Positions 38,660 through 46,944 of a stretch of 64,000 bases of DNA are shown here, piece by piece (position 1 is the first letter of the stretch; each line of letters begins with the position of its first letter). A model generated the notes under the pieces. It was not told the origin of the DNA. It ran no database searches and was given only the letters and a program-made list of their open reading frames with translations. The translations under genes and the position numbers were made by a program. Origin of the DNA: Sorangium cellulosum (GTDB lineage: Bacteria > Myxococcota_A > Polyangia > Polyangiales > Polyangiaceae); contig NZ_CP012673.1 of assembly GCF_002950945.1 (NCBI RefSeq), positions 10,926,501 through 10,990,500 of the forward strand, in the 5' to 3' direction.

Positions 38660-38945
38660 GCGCGTAGGCAAATCAAGCCGGATCGCAGCGCGAGGAAGTG
38701 TAGCGCGGCAGAGCGAAAGGGTGGGACCGCGAGCGTCGTGATGGCTCGGTCCTGGGTCGAAAGAGCGTGATCCGGGCGGCGCCGCGCGCGCGAAGGGGCG
38801 CATCGGCGTGCCGTGGGCACACGTGTCCGTCCGGGCGTTGGTCTGGCCCGGGAGGCGCGTCGCGAGACGTTATACGGCGTCACCGAGCGCCTTGCGGCGC
38901 AGAGCGGTGCTTTTCCAGTACGGTGGTCGCCGCGTGGACGCTGGG
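38660..38945. repeat. Direct repeat copy 2 (about 286 bp)
   Basis: Partner of 37421-37705. It has only one, diverged, 34-bp unit at its left end where copy 1 has three. The right end lies 53 bases before the start codon of the 5-oxoprolinase gene, so the repeat may carry its promoter. The two copies enclose the DHFR-like gene and the IS66-like relic. Confidence 0.95.
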
Positions 38946-38998
38946 CTGGACCGGGGGCGCGCGGTGGCCTACTCGCTCGAGCGAGGAGGAGCCCCCCG

Positions 38999-41900
38999 AT
39001 GGGCCGATGGCAATTCTGGATCGACCGCGGCGGCACGTTCACCGACATCGTCGGCAAGCGCCCCGACGGCTCGCTGGTCACGCACAAGCTGCTCTCGGAG
39101 AACCCCGAGGCGTACCGCGACGCGGCGGTCGCCGGCGTCCGGCGCCTGCTCGAGGCCGACGGCGGCGGCGCGGCCGACGGCGGCGGCGCGACGCGGTGGA
39201 GCGACCTGATCGAGGCGGTCAAGATGGGCACCACGGTCGCCACGAACGCGCTGCTCGAGCGCAAGGGCGAGCCGACGGCGCTCGCGATCACGCGGGGCTT
39301 CCGCGACGCGCTGCGCATCGCCTACCAGAACCGGCCGCGCCTGTTCGACCGTCACATCGTGCTGCCGGAGCTCCTCTACGGCCACGTCGTCGAGATCGAC
39401 GAGCGCGTGGGCGCCCGCGGCGAGGTGCTCGCGCCGCTCGACGAGGCCGCGGCGCGGGCGGCGCTCCAGCGCGCCTTCGACGCGGGCGTCCGCGCCCTCG
39501 CGATCGTGCTGATGCACGGCTACCGCTACCCGGCGCACGAGGCGGCGCTCGAGCGCCTCGCGCGCGAGATCGGCTTCACGCAGATCAGCGCCTCGCACGT
39601 GGTGTCGCCGATGATGAAGCTCGTCCCGCGCGGCGACACGACGGTCGTCGACGCCTACCTCTCGCCGATCCTGCGGCGGTACGTGGAGCAGGTCGCGTCG
39701 GAGCTGCCCGGCGTGCACCTCCAGTTCATGCAGTCGAGCGGCGGCCTGACCGACGCGCGCCGCTTCCAGGGCAAGGACTCGATCCTCTCCGGGCCCGCCG
39801 GCGGGATCGTCGGCATGGCGCGCACGAGCCTCTCGGCCGGCTTCGACAAGGTGATCGGCTTCGACATGGGCGGCACGTCGACCGACGTCTCGCACTTCGC
39901 CGGGTCGCAGCTCAGCGACCTCGAGCGCGCCTTCGAGACGCAGGTCGCCGGGGTGCGGATGCGCGCGCCGATGCTCTCGATCCACACGGTCGCGGCGGGC
40001 GGCGGCTCGATCCTGCGCTTCGACGGGTCGCGCTACCGCGTCGGGCCGGAGTCGGCGGGCGCGCACCCCGGCCCGGCGTGTTACCGACGCGGCGGGCCGC
40101 TCGCGGTGACGGACTGCAACGTGATGCTCGGCAAGATCCAGCCCACGTTCTTCCCGCGCGTGTTCGGCCCGCGCGCGGACCAGCCGCTCGACGCGGAGCG
40201 CGTGCGCGCGGCGTTCGCGGCGCTGGCCGAGGAGATCGCGGCGGCGACGGGCGTGCTGCGCGCGCCCGAGGAGGTCGCCGAGGGGTTCATCGAGGTCGCG
40301 GTGGGCGGCATGGCGAGCGCGATCAAGCAGATCTCGGTCGCGCGCGGGCACGACGTCACCGAGTACACGCTCGCGGTGTTCGGCGGCGCCGGCGGGCAGC
40401 ACGTGTGCCTGGTCGCCGACGCGCTCGGCATGACGCGGGTGTTCGCGCACCCGCTCGCGGGGGTGCTGTCGGCCTACGGCATGGGCCTCTCGGACCAGAC
40501 CGCGATGCGCGAGCGGTCGATCGAGCTCCGGCTCGACGCCGGCGCGACGGCGCCCCTCGAGGCCGCGCTGGACGAGCTCGCGGCCGACGCGCGCGCCGAC
40601 CTCTGCGCCCAGGGGGTGGCGCCGGAGCGCGTCGAGGTGCTCCGCCGGGTGCACCTGCGGTACGAGGGCACGGACACCGCGCTGGTCGTGGCGCACGGCG
40701 CGCCCGAGGGGATGCGCGCCGCGTTCGAGGCCACGTACCGCCGGCGGTTCGCGTTCCTGATGGAGCGGCGGCCGCTCGTCGTCGAGGCGGCCTCGGTGGA
40801 GGCGGTCGGCCGCGGGGAGCCGGTGGGCGAGGCGACGCGCGCGCTGCCGCCGCGGCCGGGGCCGCTCCTCCCGGCCGAGGTGGTGCGGATGTTCTCGGGC
40901 GGCCGCTGGCACGACGCGCCGCTCTACCGGCGCGACGACACGCGGCCCGGCGACGTCGTGCGCGGGCCGGCGATCGTCGCGGAGCAGAACCAGACCACGG
41001 TGGTCGAGCCGGGCTGGCAGGCGGAGGTGACCGCGCAGGACCACCTCGTGCTCGAGCGCGTGGAGGCGCGGCCGAGGCGCCGGGCGATCGGCACCGAGGC
41101 CGACCCGGTGATGCTCGAGGTGTTCAACAACCTGTTCATGAGCATCGCCGAGCAGATGGGCCTGCGGCTGCAGAACACGGCCCACTCCGTGAACATCAAG
41201 GAGCGGCTCGACTTCTCGTGCGCGATCTTCGACGCGGAGGGCAACCTGATCGCGAACGCGCCGCACGTGCCGGTGCACCTCGGCTCGATGGGCGAGAGCA
41301 TCAGGACGGTGATCCGGGAGAACCGCGGCGTGATGCGGCCCGGGGACGTCTACGTGCTGAACGCGCCGTACAACGGCGGCACGCACCTGCCGGACGTGAC
41401 CGTCGTGACGCCGGTGTTCGACGACGCGGGGCGGGAGGTGCTGTTCTACCTCGGCTCGCGCGGCCACCACGCGGACATCGGCGGAACGACGCCGGGCTCG
41501 ATGCCGGCCGACAGCGCGAGCGTCGAGGAGGAGGGCGTCCTCATCGACAACTTCAGGATGATCGACGGCGGCGTGTACCGGGAGGCGGAGACGCGCGCGC
41601 TGCTCTCGTCGGGCCGATACCCGGCGCGCAACGTCGACCAGAACCTGGCCGACCTGCGCGCCCAGGTCGCCGCGAACGCGAAGGGCGCCGAGGAGCTCGG
41701 CAAGATGGTGGCGCACTGGGGCCTCGACGTGGTGCGGGCCTACATGCGGCACGTGCAGGACAACGCGGAGGAGGCCGTGCGGCGGGTGATCACGGCCCTG
41801 GACGACGGCGCCTACGAGTACCGGCTCGATCCGATCGAGGGCGTCGGGGAGCCGGTGATCAAGGTGGCGATCCGCGTCGACCGCGCGCGGCGGGAGGCGA

Positions 41901-42676
41901 CCATCGATTTCACCGGCACGTCGGCCGAGCTGCCGAACAACTTCAACGCGCCGAGGTCGATCGCGACGGCGGCGGTGCTGTACGTGTTCCGCACGCTGGT
42001 CGACAGCGACATCCCGCTGAACGCGGGCTGCCTGAAGCCGCTGAAGGTGATCGTGCCCGAGGGGACGATGCTGAACCCGCGGTATCCGGCCGCGGTCGTC
42101 GCGGGCAACGTGGAGACGAGCCAGTGCGTCACGCAGGCGCTCTACGGCGCGCTCGGCGTGATGAGCGAGAGCCAGGGCTCGATGAACAACTTCACCTTCG
42201 GGAGCGAGCGATACCAGTATTACGAGACGATCGCGGGGGGATCGTCGGCCGGGGTGGTGCGCGGCGAGAGGGGGGAGATCGCCGCCGGGTTCGACGGCAC
42301 GGACGTGGTGCAAACGCACATGACGAACTCGCGGCTCACGGATCCCGAGGTGCTGGAGTGGCGCTTCCCGGTGCTGCTCGAGGAGTACCGGATCCGCGCC
42401 GGCTCGGGCGGCGCGGGGCGCTGGAAGGGCGGCGACGGCGGGGTGCGGCGCGTGCGGTTTTTGGAGCGGATGACGGCGTCGATCCTGTCGAACAACCGCG
42501 TCCACGCGCCGCGGGGGGCGGCGGGCGGCGAGGACGGGAAGACCGGGGAGAACCGGGTCGAGCGGGCGGATGGGCGGGTCGAGCGGCTCGGGGGGTGCGC
42601 GCGGACGGAAGTGGGGGCCGGGGATGTGTTCGTGATCGAGACGCCTGGGGCCGGGGGGTACGGGCGGACGGGGTGA
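38999..42676 (+). CDS. Fused 5-oxoprolinase / hydantoinase A+B
   Basis: Start at ATG 38999 with GAGGAGGA 10-17 bases upstream. The 1225-residue protein joins a HyuA-type ATPase half and a HyuB-type half. The HyuA half begins [12 protein letters not shown] and contains [11 protein letters not shown] and G-G-A-G-G-Q-H. The HyuB half begins about residue 700 and contains [19 protein letters not shown] and T-S-Q-C-V. This single-chain form matches ATP-dependent 5-oxoprolinase (5-oxo-L-proline to glutamate, the last step of the gamma-glutamyl cycle). Related fused enzymes act on hydantoins or acetophenone-like substrates. It is complete and strongly GC3-biased. Confidence 0.92.
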
Positions 42677-43022: not shown

Positions 43023-44201
43023 ATGCGGCTACGCACGCTCTCCTTTGCTGGTTACCGCTCGTTCGCGGCGCGAAGCCCTGCCGCTCCTGAGCGGCCGTTG
43101 CAGCGCCTCCAGCTCGCTCCCCTCACGATCCTTCTCGGTAAGAACAACAGCGGGAAGAGTACGGTCGCACGTCTGCTCCATCATGTGCTCCTTGCGCTCG
43201 GCCATGACGGGAAGGACCCCTTTCCGATGGACCGCGACGGCCACAAGTATGGCGGCAGCTTCCGGGACGTACAGCATGGCGGCGCGTTCTTCAACCCAGT
43301 CGACCTTGAGGTCGAGCTCAGCGCGGAAGATGGTGCAGAGACCACACTCGCGACCCAGCTCATCCAGGTAAGCGACATCGCGGATGACCGCCCGCCACTC
43401 GTTCAGAAATGCATATTCCGAGGCAAAGCATTCGCTGCCGAAGAAACCCCCCTCCGGGGGCTGTTACCGGATGTGCCGGAAGCGAACTCCTGGCGAGAAG
43501 GTGCCCGTCGTCTTCTGAAGGCGAGCTGTCATATAGGACCTGTACGCGATTCCGTCCAGGAATCTTATGAGGTCGTTCGAAACAAAACGGAGCAACGTCT
43601 CCCAAACAGCCGTGACGCCATTGCGCAGATGCTGCTGACGGACGTTGAGCTACGCGCCGCCGTTGGCGACTGGATGGCGAAGCATCTCGAAGGGTGGCGC
43701 GTCGACGTGCGGCAGAGCCTTGACACGTTCAAGCTAATGGCGCGCAGAGCGGGACGAGAATCTAACCTTGCAGACGCTGGGCAAGGGATACAGCAGGTGC
43801 TGCCGGTCGCGGTGCTTTGTTGCTGGCGCAGTCTGGGCCGCAGCGATGCATCCTTCCTCGACATTATGGAACAGCCCGAGTTGCACCTGCATGACGCGGC
43901 ACACGCCCCAATAGGCGATCTGTTGCTCTCCGCGGTCGCCGACACGCGTGGGAACCTCGTTGTGGAAACTCATTCGGAGTCACTGGTGCTACGCGTTCGC
44001 CGGCGCATTGCAGAGGGACGGCTATCTCCCGACCATGTGGCGATGATATATGTAGAGGACACAGCGGAAGGGAGTCAGCTTCGACCGATTCCACTAGAGC
44101 CCAACGGCGAGGTCGAATGGTGGCCTGAAGGGGTATTCTCAGAGGCTTTCGTGGAGGTGAAGGCCATTCGTAGAGCCCAGCGTGCCCGCGGGGGCGCCTG
44201 A
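43023..44201 (+). CDS. AAA ATPase with DUF3696-like C-terminus (candidate defence cassette, gene 1)
   Basis: A 392-residue SMC/OLD-like ATPase. It opens L-R-T-L-S-F-A-G-Y-R-S-F, then Walker A G-K-N-N-S-G-K-S-T (39-47). A 190-residue insertion follows, then a signature-like A-G-Q-G-I-Q-Q-V-L-P, Walker B F-L-D-I-M-E-Q-P-E-L-H-L-H and the His switch V-V-E-T-H-S-E-S-L-V-L-R. The end, L-E-P-N-G-E-V-E-W-W-P-E-G-V-F-S-E-A-F, resembles DUF3696. Such ATPases act as sensors or clamps paired with a nuclease in several phage-defence systems. Its codon use is visibly less GC-rich than neighbouring genes. The stop overlaps the next start (TGATG). Confidence 0.87.
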   Translation: MRLRTLSFAGYRSFAARSPAAPERPLQRLQLAPLTILLGKNNSGKSTVARLLHHVLLALGHDGKDPFPMDRDGHKYGGSFRDVQHGGAFFNPVDLEVELSAEDGAETTLATQLIQVSDIADDRPPLVQKCIFRGKAFAAEETPLRGLLPDVPEANSWREGARRLLKASCHIGPVRDSVQESYEVVRNKTEQRLPNSRDAIAQMLLTDVELRAAVGDWMAKHLEGWRVDVRQSLDTFKLMARRAGRESNLADAGQGIQQVLPVAVLCCWRSLGRSDASFLDIMEQPELHLHDAAHAPIGDLLLSAVADTRGNLVVETHSESLVLRVRRRIAEGRLSPDHVAMIYVEDTAEGSQLRPIPLEPNGEVEWWPEGVFSEAFVEVKAIRRAQRARGGA

Positions 44202-45202
44202 TGCTGTTCGTAGTGCAGCTCGCAGCCATGAACGGTGAAGAGAGGGTCCTCGACGCACTAGACGCCATCCTTGTCCGTGTCGAGGACGACGTGCATGAGG
44301 CTGAGCTCATCGACGTTGACGAGCTAGAGGCAAGTGCATGGTATCAGTCAAGCCGTCGAGATCGACAGAAGTTGCTTGAGAAGATCGCGGAAGCATCCTT
44401 GCACCGTTCACCCCGCAAGCGGGGTCCACACCTGCGACGGGTCGAGGTTAGCGATCCGGCCACCGCCGCACAGGCCCGGGTCATCGCGCATGCACCTTTG
44501 CTCGTGCTTGTCGAGAACGACATCTCAGATGGATCCCTCGTCGAGGCCGCCCTGAGGACGCTCGCCGAGCCGGCGACTATCGAGTTATGCTTCGGCGCAC
44601 CGTCGCAGCTTGAGCCACCAGCCTTTAAGATGGAGAGTCGAGGCGGGCATGGTGAGCTAAAAAAGCTCATCGTGAGTTGCATCAAAGACGCTGCAGCGCG
44701 CGGGCGTCGACCCAGAATGGTGGTGATCACTGACAGCGACGGAGAATGGCCAGGGGAAGTAAAGTCGCACGCTCAAGAAATTCGCACAGATTGTGCCAGA
44801 CACGGCATTCCATGCCCACCTCTCAATAAGCGCACGGCAGAAAATTACATCCCGGATGCGGTGTGGCACGCGTGGGTAAGCGACCCGGACAAGACGGCCG
44901 CGAAACCGATGGTGGAGGCGCTGCTCCGACTATCTCGCGAGCAGCGGGATCATGTCAACATGGCTCGTCCTGATCAAAGTCCATGGGATAAGAACAAGCC
45001 GAAAGCCGTGGCACTCTTTCAGGGGGTCTCGACTGCAGACGAGGATATACTTCGGCGCTCTAACCTGAAGGGGAGAAGCGACAGCATGTTGATTCTGGCG
45101 CTGAAGGTACACGCGAATGCGCTCACGTCGATCGATCTCCAGGCCCGCGACCATCAAGGGGACCTTTTGAACCTGGTACGCAACATCGAGGATGAACTGT
45201 AG
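44201..45202 (+). CDS. TOPRIM-like protein (candidate defence cassette, gene 2)
   Basis: A 333-residue protein without a recognised full-length family. Residues 99-125 read P-L-L-V-L-V-E-N-D-I-S-D-G, giving a conserved-type Glu (E105) after a beta-strand. Residues 172-182 read M-V-V-I-T-D-S-D-G-E-W, giving a D-x-D pair (D178, D180). Then comes K-R-T-A-E-N-Y-I-P-D-A (210-220), like the K-R-x-x-E-N-Y segment of OLD-family and DUF4435 TOPRIM nucleases. Glu plus D-x-D is the metal site of TOPRIM enzymes. It probably is the nuclease arm used by the upstream ATPase, with the two OLD halves on separate chains. It overlaps that gene by one base and is followed 2 bases later by the DUF262 gene. Confidence 0.72.
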   Translation: MLFVVQLAAMNGEERVLDALDAILVRVEDDVHEAELIDVDELEASAWYQSSRRDRQKLLEKIAEASLHRSPRKRGPHLRRVEVSDPATAAQARVIAHAPLLVLVENDISDGSLVEAALRTLAEPATIELCFGAPSQLEPPAFKMESRGGHGELKKLIVSCIKDAAARGRRPRMVVITDSDGEWPGEVKSHAQEIRTDCARHGIPCPPLNKRTAENYIPDAVWHAWVSDPDKTAAKPMVEALLRLSREQRDHVNMARPDQSPWDKNKPKAVALFQGVSTADEDILRRSNLKGRSDSMLILALKVHANALTSIDLQARDHQGDLLNLVRNIEDEL

Positions 45203-45204
45203 CC

Positions 45205-46944
45205 ATGCGCCAAGCGGAACGCCGAGAAGAGGCTCCCGAAATCACCCCTCAGGTGCTTCACCTGCGCGATCTACTGAAGTGGGTGCGCCAGGGGCGGATA
45301 CGGGTACCGAATTTTCAGCGGGACTTCACCTGGGACCGCCAGCGGATGCTCAATCTGTTCGACTCTATCCGTAAGCAATATCCTATCGGAACTCTGCTTT
45401 TCTGGGAGTCCACCAAGCCGCTCCCGATGTCCGACCGCCTGGGCCCCCTCAGTCTTCCCAGTTCTGCGGGGGGGAAGCTTCTGGTGCTGGACGGACAGCA
45501 ACGCCTGACGACGCTCGCCGGCGTGTTACTGCTCGATGAGCTGGAGCGAAGCCCGGCAGATGACCGCGATCCGGCCAGATGGATTATCCATTACGACGCC
45601 GCGGCTGATGGTTTCGCTTATTTTGATGACGATCCGCCGCTGTCGGCGGTGAGGGTCTCGGAACTAATGGGCACCAAGGGTCTCTACAATGCTGCTCAGA
45701 GCATCATGGGAGCACCGGGGCAAGTCCCTGACACCGAAACCCGCTCCAGATGGATGGAACGCATCGAATCGGTTTCGGCGGCCCTTGCCGCGTACCGAAT
45801 CCCGCTCGTCATCTTCGCAACGGACTCGCTGCGCCTCGCCGTCGAGAGCTTCACGCGTGTCAACCGAAGTGGACAATCGCTGGGACCCGACGAGATGTTC
45901 TCAGCCCTGACCTACAAGGTCGACGACGAGCAGGAAACCTTTCGTCTCGCCAAGCAGATCGACTCCATTCTTGCCGAGATCGTGCGAACCGGCTTCGGGG
46001 AGATGGAGCGTGTCGTCGTGCTGCGTTCCGTGCTTCTCGCCGCCGAACTGGATCCGTTTCGAACGGAGTGGGATCAGCTCGCCGAGGAGACCCGGAGGGA
46101 CGCCACGACGAGGCTCCCTGCTGCCATCAAAGAAGCGCGAGAAGGGCTACTCCGTGCGGTGGAATTCCTACGCGCCGAGGGTATTCGTAACAAGCGCTTG
46201 CTACCGTACAGCATGCAAATCGTCGGACTTGCTGCCTTCTTCGGCCGTCGCGATGGTGCACCGACGGAAAAGCAGAAGGCTCTCCTACGCCGCTGGCTAT
46301 GGGTTAGCGGGTTTACCGAGGGCTTCGGCGGGTTGAACCCGAGCCGCATTCTTCTTCAGCTCAAGGATCTGCGCGAGGTGATCCCGAACCAGGATGCTCC
46401 CGTTACCGTGGAAGGGATCGATCTCGACGCGCCAGCGCACCCTTTCCCCGAGCGCCACGACCACCGTAGCGCACGAGTACGTGCACTGCTTTGTGTGATG
46501 TTGCGTGAGCGCGTGCTGGGCCCCGACGGCGCACCGATCGACCCGGAGAAGATGGCGTCCGACGTGCTTCAGCGCGGCCCACAAGCCCTCGCGCGAGTCT
46601 GCGTCCGGGTACAGAACCGGGGGAAGGCGCCGCTCATGTCCAGTCCGGCTAACCGAGTCTTCGACGTGACGCCTGGCAAACGAGGTCAGGCTAAGACCTG
46701 GTTGCTGGCCATCGATCCTTCGATTCGAAGCACCGTGCTTCAGTCGCACCACGTTTCCGAGGAGGCGTGGAAAGCTCTTGTTGAAGACGATCACCGCGCC
46801 TTCGTGGAGGAGCGGATCAAAACCCTCATGAATCTCGAACGGCGGTTCATGGAAGAAAAAGGCGTGGTGCCACCCAAAGCCGACCGCCCGGCCCCCAGCG
46901 CTATCGATGTCGAAGACGAAGTGCCTCTCAGCGATGACGCGTAA
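45205..46944 (+). CDS. DUF262 protein (candidate defence cassette, gene 3)
   Basis: A 579-residue protein with the DUF262 (GmrS/ParB-like NTPase) core. It has R-I-R-V-P-N-F-Q-R-D-F-T-W (31-43), L-F-D-S-I-R-K-Q-Y-P-I-G-T-L-L-F-W (51-67), V-L-D-G-Q-Q-R-L-T-T-L (94-104) and F-T-R-V-N-R-S-G-Q-S-L (about 213-223). The D-G-Q-Q-R motif is the catalytic signature of this fold. The C-terminal half is helical, with S-H-H-V-S-E-E-A-W and F-V-E-E-R-I near 515-540 and no HNH motif that I can find. In modification-dependent enzymes and phosphorothioate-sensing SspE, DUF262 hydrolyses nucleotides and gates a nuclease. Here the nuclease may be the separate upstream TOPRIM-like protein. The tail is acidic. 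Confidence 0.87.
   Translation: MRQAERREEAPEITPQVLHLRDLLKWVRQGRIRVPNFQRDFTWDRQRMLNLFDSIRKQYPIGTLLFWESTKPLPMSDRLGPLSLPSSAGGKLLVLDGQQRLTTLAGVLLLDELERSPADDRDPARWIIHYDAAADGFAYFDDDPPLSAVRVSELMGTKGLYNAAQSIMGAPGQVPDTETRSRWMERIESVSAALAAYRIPLVIFATDSLRLAVESFTRVNRSGQSLGPDEMFSALTYKVDDEQETFRLAKQIDSILAEIVRTGFGEMERVVVLRSVLLAAELDPFRTEWDQLAEETRRDATTRLPAAIKEAREGLLRAVEFLRAEGIRNKRLLPYSMQIVGLAAFFGRRDGAPTEKQKALLRRWLWVSGFTEGFGGLNPSRILLQLKDLREVIPNQDAPVTVEGIDLDAPAHPFPERHDHRSARVRALLCVMLRERVLGPDGAPIDPEKMASDVLQRGPQALARVCVRVQNRGKAPLMSSPANRVFDVTPGKRGQAKTWLLAIDPSIRSTVLQSHHVSEEAWKALVEDDHRAFVEERIKTLMNLERRFMEEKGVVPPKADRPAPSAIDVEDEVPLSDDA

Follow-up and report, generated by a model that had tools for sequence, protein, structure and literature searches.

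The window analysed here, a 64,000-nucleotide stretch of Sorangium cellulosum (contig NZ_CP012673.1, positions 10,926,501 to 10,990,500), carries on its forward strand three adjacent genes, A, B and C (43023–46944), which by protein-model matches and same-strand adjacency are a copy of PDC-M55, a candidate defence system of the PADLOC-DB catalogue. Judging from its sequence and from related systems, the trio probably acts as a gated two-chain anti-phage nuclease. Models of PADLOC-DB 2.0.0 match all three genes: PDC-M55A gene A (E-value 8.7e-75), PDC-M55B gene B (1.1e-23) and PDC-M55C gene C (8.6e-104). The first-pass annotation had held that the trio corresponds to no named defence system. These matches overturn that claim, an outcome that the annotation itself had listed as refuting it, so the trio is not unnamed, although the entry is an unvalidated candidate and its models carry no description. 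No feature that would set the trio apart from PDC-M55 was seen. The abbreviation PDC denotes a phage (or putative) defence candidate; the set originated from guilt-by-embedding and is described as mostly unvalidated (PMC11514479, PMC12988326). Two other PDCs are reported as inactive when assayed in a native host (PMC12409345); HEC-06, which came from the same approach, is reported as active. Neither the name PDC-M55 nor a mechanism for it was found in the limited literature collection searched. The catalogue thus already held the system as a candidate, and what is added here is its predicted TOPRIM and split-OLD anatomy.

All three genes are uninterrupted from ATG to stop: A spans 43023–44201 (392 residues), B 44201–45202 (333 residues) and C 45205–46944 (579 residues). 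At the A/B junction, TGATG, the TGA of A and the ATG of B share one base; two bases separate the TAG of B from the ATG of C, and GGGAGG lies upstream of the ATG of A. The genes also differ in composition from their surroundings. G+C is 59.5–61.4% in four 1-kb windows from 43001 compared with 70.8% for the whole window, G or C occupies 33 of the 60 bases at 44641–44700, and G+C at third codon positions (GC3) is 0.65–0.70 in the trio and 0.88–0.97 in three flanking open reading frames (ORFs). The close packing and the lower G+C had both been read correctly in the first-pass annotation.

B belongs to the TOPRIM superfamily, as judged by profile comparison, and is probably the chain that provides the metal-dependent nuclease in a split OLD enzyme. 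Aligned by hhalign with ten TOPRIM domains of DUF4435 and OLD proteins, picked independently of B, the B profile scored 38.5 (probability 52.7). Controls stayed well below: 300 column shuffles reached at most 16.7, the reversed profile 9.9, a profile of the Menshen protein NsnC 14.4 and a profile of C 18.0. The OLD domains alone gave 30.7 (shuffles ≤18.8). Within the alignment, the acidic residue and the DxD motif of TOPRIM domains fall in register with those of B. The PDC-M55B model matches all 16 B sequences, window included, that remain when two copies with broken frames (loci L027 and L029) and a truncated one (L033) are left out, and 11 residues are invariant among them: M1, H32, E105, D110, G149, D178, D180, L208, R211, Y216 and P218. 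Counted from the gene start, E105, the first TOPRIM acidic residue (codon 44513–44515), and D110 (44528–44530) lie in a VEN..SDG motif, and D178-S179-D180 form the DxD motif (44732–44740). In a further motif, RxxENYxP (R211-T-A-E214-N-Y216-I-P218; 44831–44854), R211, Y216 and P218 are present in all 16 sequences and E214 in 15; the ENY part recurs in the four fused ATPase–TOPRIM proteins considered below.

A is an OLD-type ABC ATPase, matched above the Pfam cut-off by AAA_15 (7.4e-12) and AAA_21 (6.6e-7). It contains GKNNSGKS, DAGQGIQQ, EQPE and ETH, which we take to be its Walker A, signature-like, Walker B and H-loop motifs, respectively. Across 17 sequences including that of the window (loci L013, L024 and L033 left out), G39, N41, G44, K45, R175, G255, P285, E286, H290, E315, T316 and H317 are invariant.

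The relation of A to B is best appreciated from proteins in which both parts share one chain. A search with the PDC-M55B model of 297 genomes from the phylum of the nearest relative found (locus L024, in a Bryobacterales metagenome-assembled genome, MAG) returned four matches, all of them ORFs of 544–628 residues. The A profile matches all four and the B profile three, the former requiring a profile since A as a single-sequence query matches none. In their C-terminal parts, VEG and ENY motifs are found together with DSD, DGD or, in two, DSE; these parts score 45.6 against the independent TOPRIM set (200 shuffles ≤17.9). This match is independent of how the proteins were found; the B profile's own score against them, 80.7, is not, since the PDC-M55B model had been used to find them. 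No C gene occurs within the stretches fetched around the four. Since A-like and B-like parts do occur joined in single OLD-type chains, A and B together look like an OLD nuclease split over two proteins, comparable to PARIS. Of the features that define OLD proteins, the pair has the ABC ATPase domain and, by sequence profile only, a TOPRIM domain that has the acidic residue and the DxD motif; its separate ORFs depart from the single chain of classes 1–3. In two genomes of the same phylum, relatives of A (L100:4322–5668 and L101:5712–7127) have no B or C match nearby.

C is a DUF262 protein with FQR and DGQQR motifs, matched by GmrSD_N (7.6e-23) and by nothing else in Pfam up to an E-value of 1, DUF1524/HNH included. 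The PDC-M55C model matches 18 of 18 C sequences (L024 and L027 left out), the DGxQR motif is present in every one, and their invariant residues include F37, Q38, R39, D96, G97, Q99, R100, N220, N483 and R537. H515 is missing in 5 of the 18, which together with the lack of a DUF1524 match argues that C has no HNH site. Hence the identities proposed at first pass hold for all three genes: an OLD-like ATPase, a TOPRIM-type protein with E105, D178 and D180, and a DUF262 protein lacking HNH. The DUF3696 label that had been put on A stands in part, for the match is there but, at 21.5 bits, falls slightly below the Pfam cut-off of 22.

C relatives also occur beside other genes. On a Klebsiella plasmid (L040:3964–6557), a PDC-M55C-like DUF262 gene directly follows a gene with a putAbiC domain (4e-16), with no A or B match; on an Azospirillum plasmid (L036:4917–7802), a C-like gene is directly followed by a HipA-like gene (HipA_C 2e-50). 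These arrangements, two of ten loci opened, hint at a division of roles in which C acts as trigger and the adjacent gene product as effector. It is conceivable, and we suggest it tentatively, that C-type DUF262 proteins are portable triggers wired to different killing parts, namely a split OLD nuclease (A and B), putAbiC or a HipA-like kinase. In that case the trio would represent an OLD class of its own, with the nuclease controlled by an NTPase (nucleoside triphosphatase) switch and not by a helicase or retron.

The operon is conserved and its genes are inherited jointly. At all 15 genome loci found with B besides the window, A, B and C follow one another in that order on one strand, which answers the co-occurrence check proposed with the first-pass annotation. 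Three of the 15 are imperfect: B is interrupted by a TAG in L027 and spread over two frames in L029, and L033 starts inside A. A start codon that permits a 4-base A/B overlap is available at 13 of 18 loci. Trees of A, B and C for 15 complete loci agree, with distances correlated at r of 0.77, 0.91 and 0.76, values that none of 2,000 permutations reached, and the agreement also holds when one of two near-identical loci is removed. In a plasmid collection, 77 records match C. Ten of these were opened; three carry the trio (Paracoccus yeei, Leclercia and Nonomuraea) and seven C only. The Nonomuraea record measures 11.85 Mb and so is probably chromosomal. Two of the plasmid trio copies have a recombinase or integrase gene nearby. 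At L027 (6331–8730), the part of B after the internal TAG shares an open frame with C, perhaps the remains of a decayed B–C fusion. A second Leclercia plasmid (NZ_MH909329.1, 101537–103252) carries a B relative (98% identical) split in two, and an IS1-like element is annotated where the match lies.

Each of four named systems resembles the trio in part, and the trio lacks a defining feature of each. Menshen (NsnA, NsnB, NsnC), the first rival identity because its DUF262 and ATPase parts are like C and A, also has three genes, but these run DUF262-like, ATPase, NsnC (L054, L057, L059). The NsnB (5.4e-33) and NsnA (4.5e-9) models do match the trio, at values much weaker than those of PDC-M55A and PDC-M55C. 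The NsnC model does not match B up to an E-value of 1, profile comparison of the two is at noise (the NsnC alignment comprising seven loci, some of them weak matches), and no TOPRIM signal was seen in NsnC by profile comparison. Menshen was rejected as the identity of the trio since NsnC and B show no relation in these comparisons. PARIS (AriA and AriB) likewise has an OLD-type ABC ATPase and a TOPRIM nuclease on separate chains (PMC10568477). It differs in that its AriA model matches A only weakly (3.3e-13 compared with 8.7e-75 for PDC-M55A). AriB belongs to DUF4435, which matches no B protein, and PARIS consists of two genes without DUF262, whereas the trio has C as a third. Gabija (GajA and GajB) and single-chain OLD proteins share the logic of ABC ATPase plus TOPRIM; in the trio the halves are on two chains, the operon has no UvrD-like helicase, and the best GajA model among the matches listed reaches 1.2e-5. 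GmrSD, BrxU and SspE share the DUF262 domain with its FQR and DGQQR motifs, but C lacks their DUF1524/HNH nuclease domain.

How the trio might work is suggested by these relatives. An ABC ATPase is coupled to a TOPRIM nuclease in OLD proteins, GajA and PARIS, class 4 having been proposed for the separate genes of PARIS (PMC10568477). In SspE, the NTPase activity of DUF262 is reported to turn on the nuclease domain, and a review suggests for Menshen, in which DUF262 is paired with an OLD-type nuclease, that the DUF262 protein regulates its associated nuclease (PMC10952713). From these parallels we infer that C senses and switches, A gates and B cuts. A and B would be separate chains that each supply one half of an OLD-family nuclease, B carrying a metal-dependent active site made up of E105, D178 and D180, and ATP-driven assembly of A holding or positioning B. 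C, an NTPase that carries no nuclease itself, would detect the invader (or the invader's nucleotide state) and in turn release or recruit A and B. The pair would then cut nucleic acid and so stop infection, probably through cell arrest. Family membership, conserved catalytic motifs, a conserved operon and joint inheritance are observed; complex formation, nuclease activity, triggering by C and an anti-phage role are predicted from the relatives. The likely active site of B and the split-OLD likeness of A and B would provide a testable mechanism for a catalogued system, with defined sites to mutate: K45 in A, E105, D178 and D180 in B and the DGQQR motif in C. One operon would also connect TOPRIM/OLD nucleases with DUF262 NTPases, both of them large themes in defence, which raises the question of whether DUF262 proteins are interchangeable triggers.

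Several observations weigh against a gated nuclease with a defence role. A Pfam scan of the 16 B proteins found no relevant family, neither TOPRIM nor DUF4435 matching any of them (up to an E-value of 1 for DUF4435). Against the DUF4435 domains alone, a profile of six sequences of which two are under the Pfam cut-off, B scored only 24.0, barely above shuffles (≤20.8). DUF4435, which the first-pass annotation had listed for a profile check of B, was rejected as its family on these two counts, and our claim is limited to the TOPRIM superfamily. Pfam likewise recognizes ATPase domains only, and no TOPRIM, in the four one-chain proteins, and the DSE of two of them stands where DxD is expected. Since the A profile matches other OLD-type proteins (L064, L063 and L070) about equally well, A counts as an OLD-type ATPase of the general kind and is not diagnostic by itself. 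C relatives in 7 of the 10 plasmid-collection records opened have no A or B match. The flanks of the trio are ordinary. Moreover, no defence-island signal was seen in 84 flanking ORFs of 15 loci (of 103 picked by length and GC3; the window's own flanks are not among them); at 1e-10 there were matches to 33 PADLOC families, at least 32 of them through one Ser/Thr kinase. Finally, at L024 (4867–7719) A (residues 1–377) and C (from residue 8) form one 950-residue frame in which B is missing, with no N at the junction.

Alternatively, like GmrSD and SspE, C might recognize a chemical mark on invading DNA and signal A and B to cut that DNA directly, in which case the cell would survive. DUF262 proteins of known function are reported to read modified or phosphorothioated DNA (PMC10952713). 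A C without its own HNH would, moreover, need a partner nuclease for such modification-dependent restriction, but Pfam recognizes no DNA-reader domain in its C-terminal half. C relatives adjoin putAbiC and HipA genes, families not known to cut DNA. The TOPRIM half of PARIS also points elsewhere, AriB being described as a two-metal nuclease that cuts tRNA (PMC12409363), and we regard restriction of this kind as rather unlikely.

The lack of a defence-island signal in the flanks scanned, and the presence of two trio copies on plasmids, would also suit a DNA-repair, anti-plasmid or self-maintenance (toxin–antitoxin-like) module that is not directed at phages. Set against this are the listing of the trio by PADLOC as a defence candidate, the resemblance of A and B to parts of OLD, PARIS and Gabija, and a patchy distribution with transfer between distant lineages, which fits defence; a non-phage role is therefore unlikely. 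Of 108 genomes of the family, 6 have a B relative, as do 10 of 282 genomes of the phylum; these sets overlap, and the genome of the window belongs to both. This patchiness, the low GC3 and the presence of a recombinase or integrase gene close to the two plasmid copies argue for mobility of the trio, as expected of the proposed anti-phage nuclease. No phage-borne relatives were found in phage records searched with two B proteins or in viral contigs searched with the C of the window and three B proteins, and a DNA-level search of E. coli genomes with the Leclercia locus found no relative.

That A and C are the working core, with B accessory or regulatory or its nuclease dispensable, would fit the fused frame of L024, whose A and C parts are 64% and 72% identical to those of the window and whose genome has no PDC-M55B match, but this is very improbable. 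The frame is a single case, from a MAG, in which the equivalents of the last 15 residues of A and the first 7 of C are missing, and it could stem from a deletion or misassembly; every one of the 18 other loci opened with both A and C has B, and E105, D178 and D180 are retained in all intact copies aligned. No further A–C fusion was found in the 297 genomes of that phylum besides L024's own; the frame may be a genuine fusion, the remnant of a decayed copy or an artefact of assembly.

The host genome (14.6 Mb, one contig) contains a second, diverged A-B-C copy near 3.864 Mb (L010:4377–8316), similar to one in another genome of the genus (L009:4373–8312, genome G101). Its A, B and C are 34%, 26% and 36% identical to those of the window. 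The window copy groups with copies of other families and not with L010; this grouping, together with a nearest relative in a Bryobacterales MAG, points to horizontal transfer of the window copy.

A hydantoinase gene (38813–42676) precedes the trio; an ORF that no Pfam family matches and a GST gene follow it. In an empty-site comparison, similarity to three genomes of the genus stops near the end of the hydantoinase gene, the downstream side being absent from the 8–10 kb taken per genome. The first ~60 codons of the hydantoinase ORF (38813–38990) recur many times within the genus and look like a dispersed repeat, such that the true start of this gene is probably further in.

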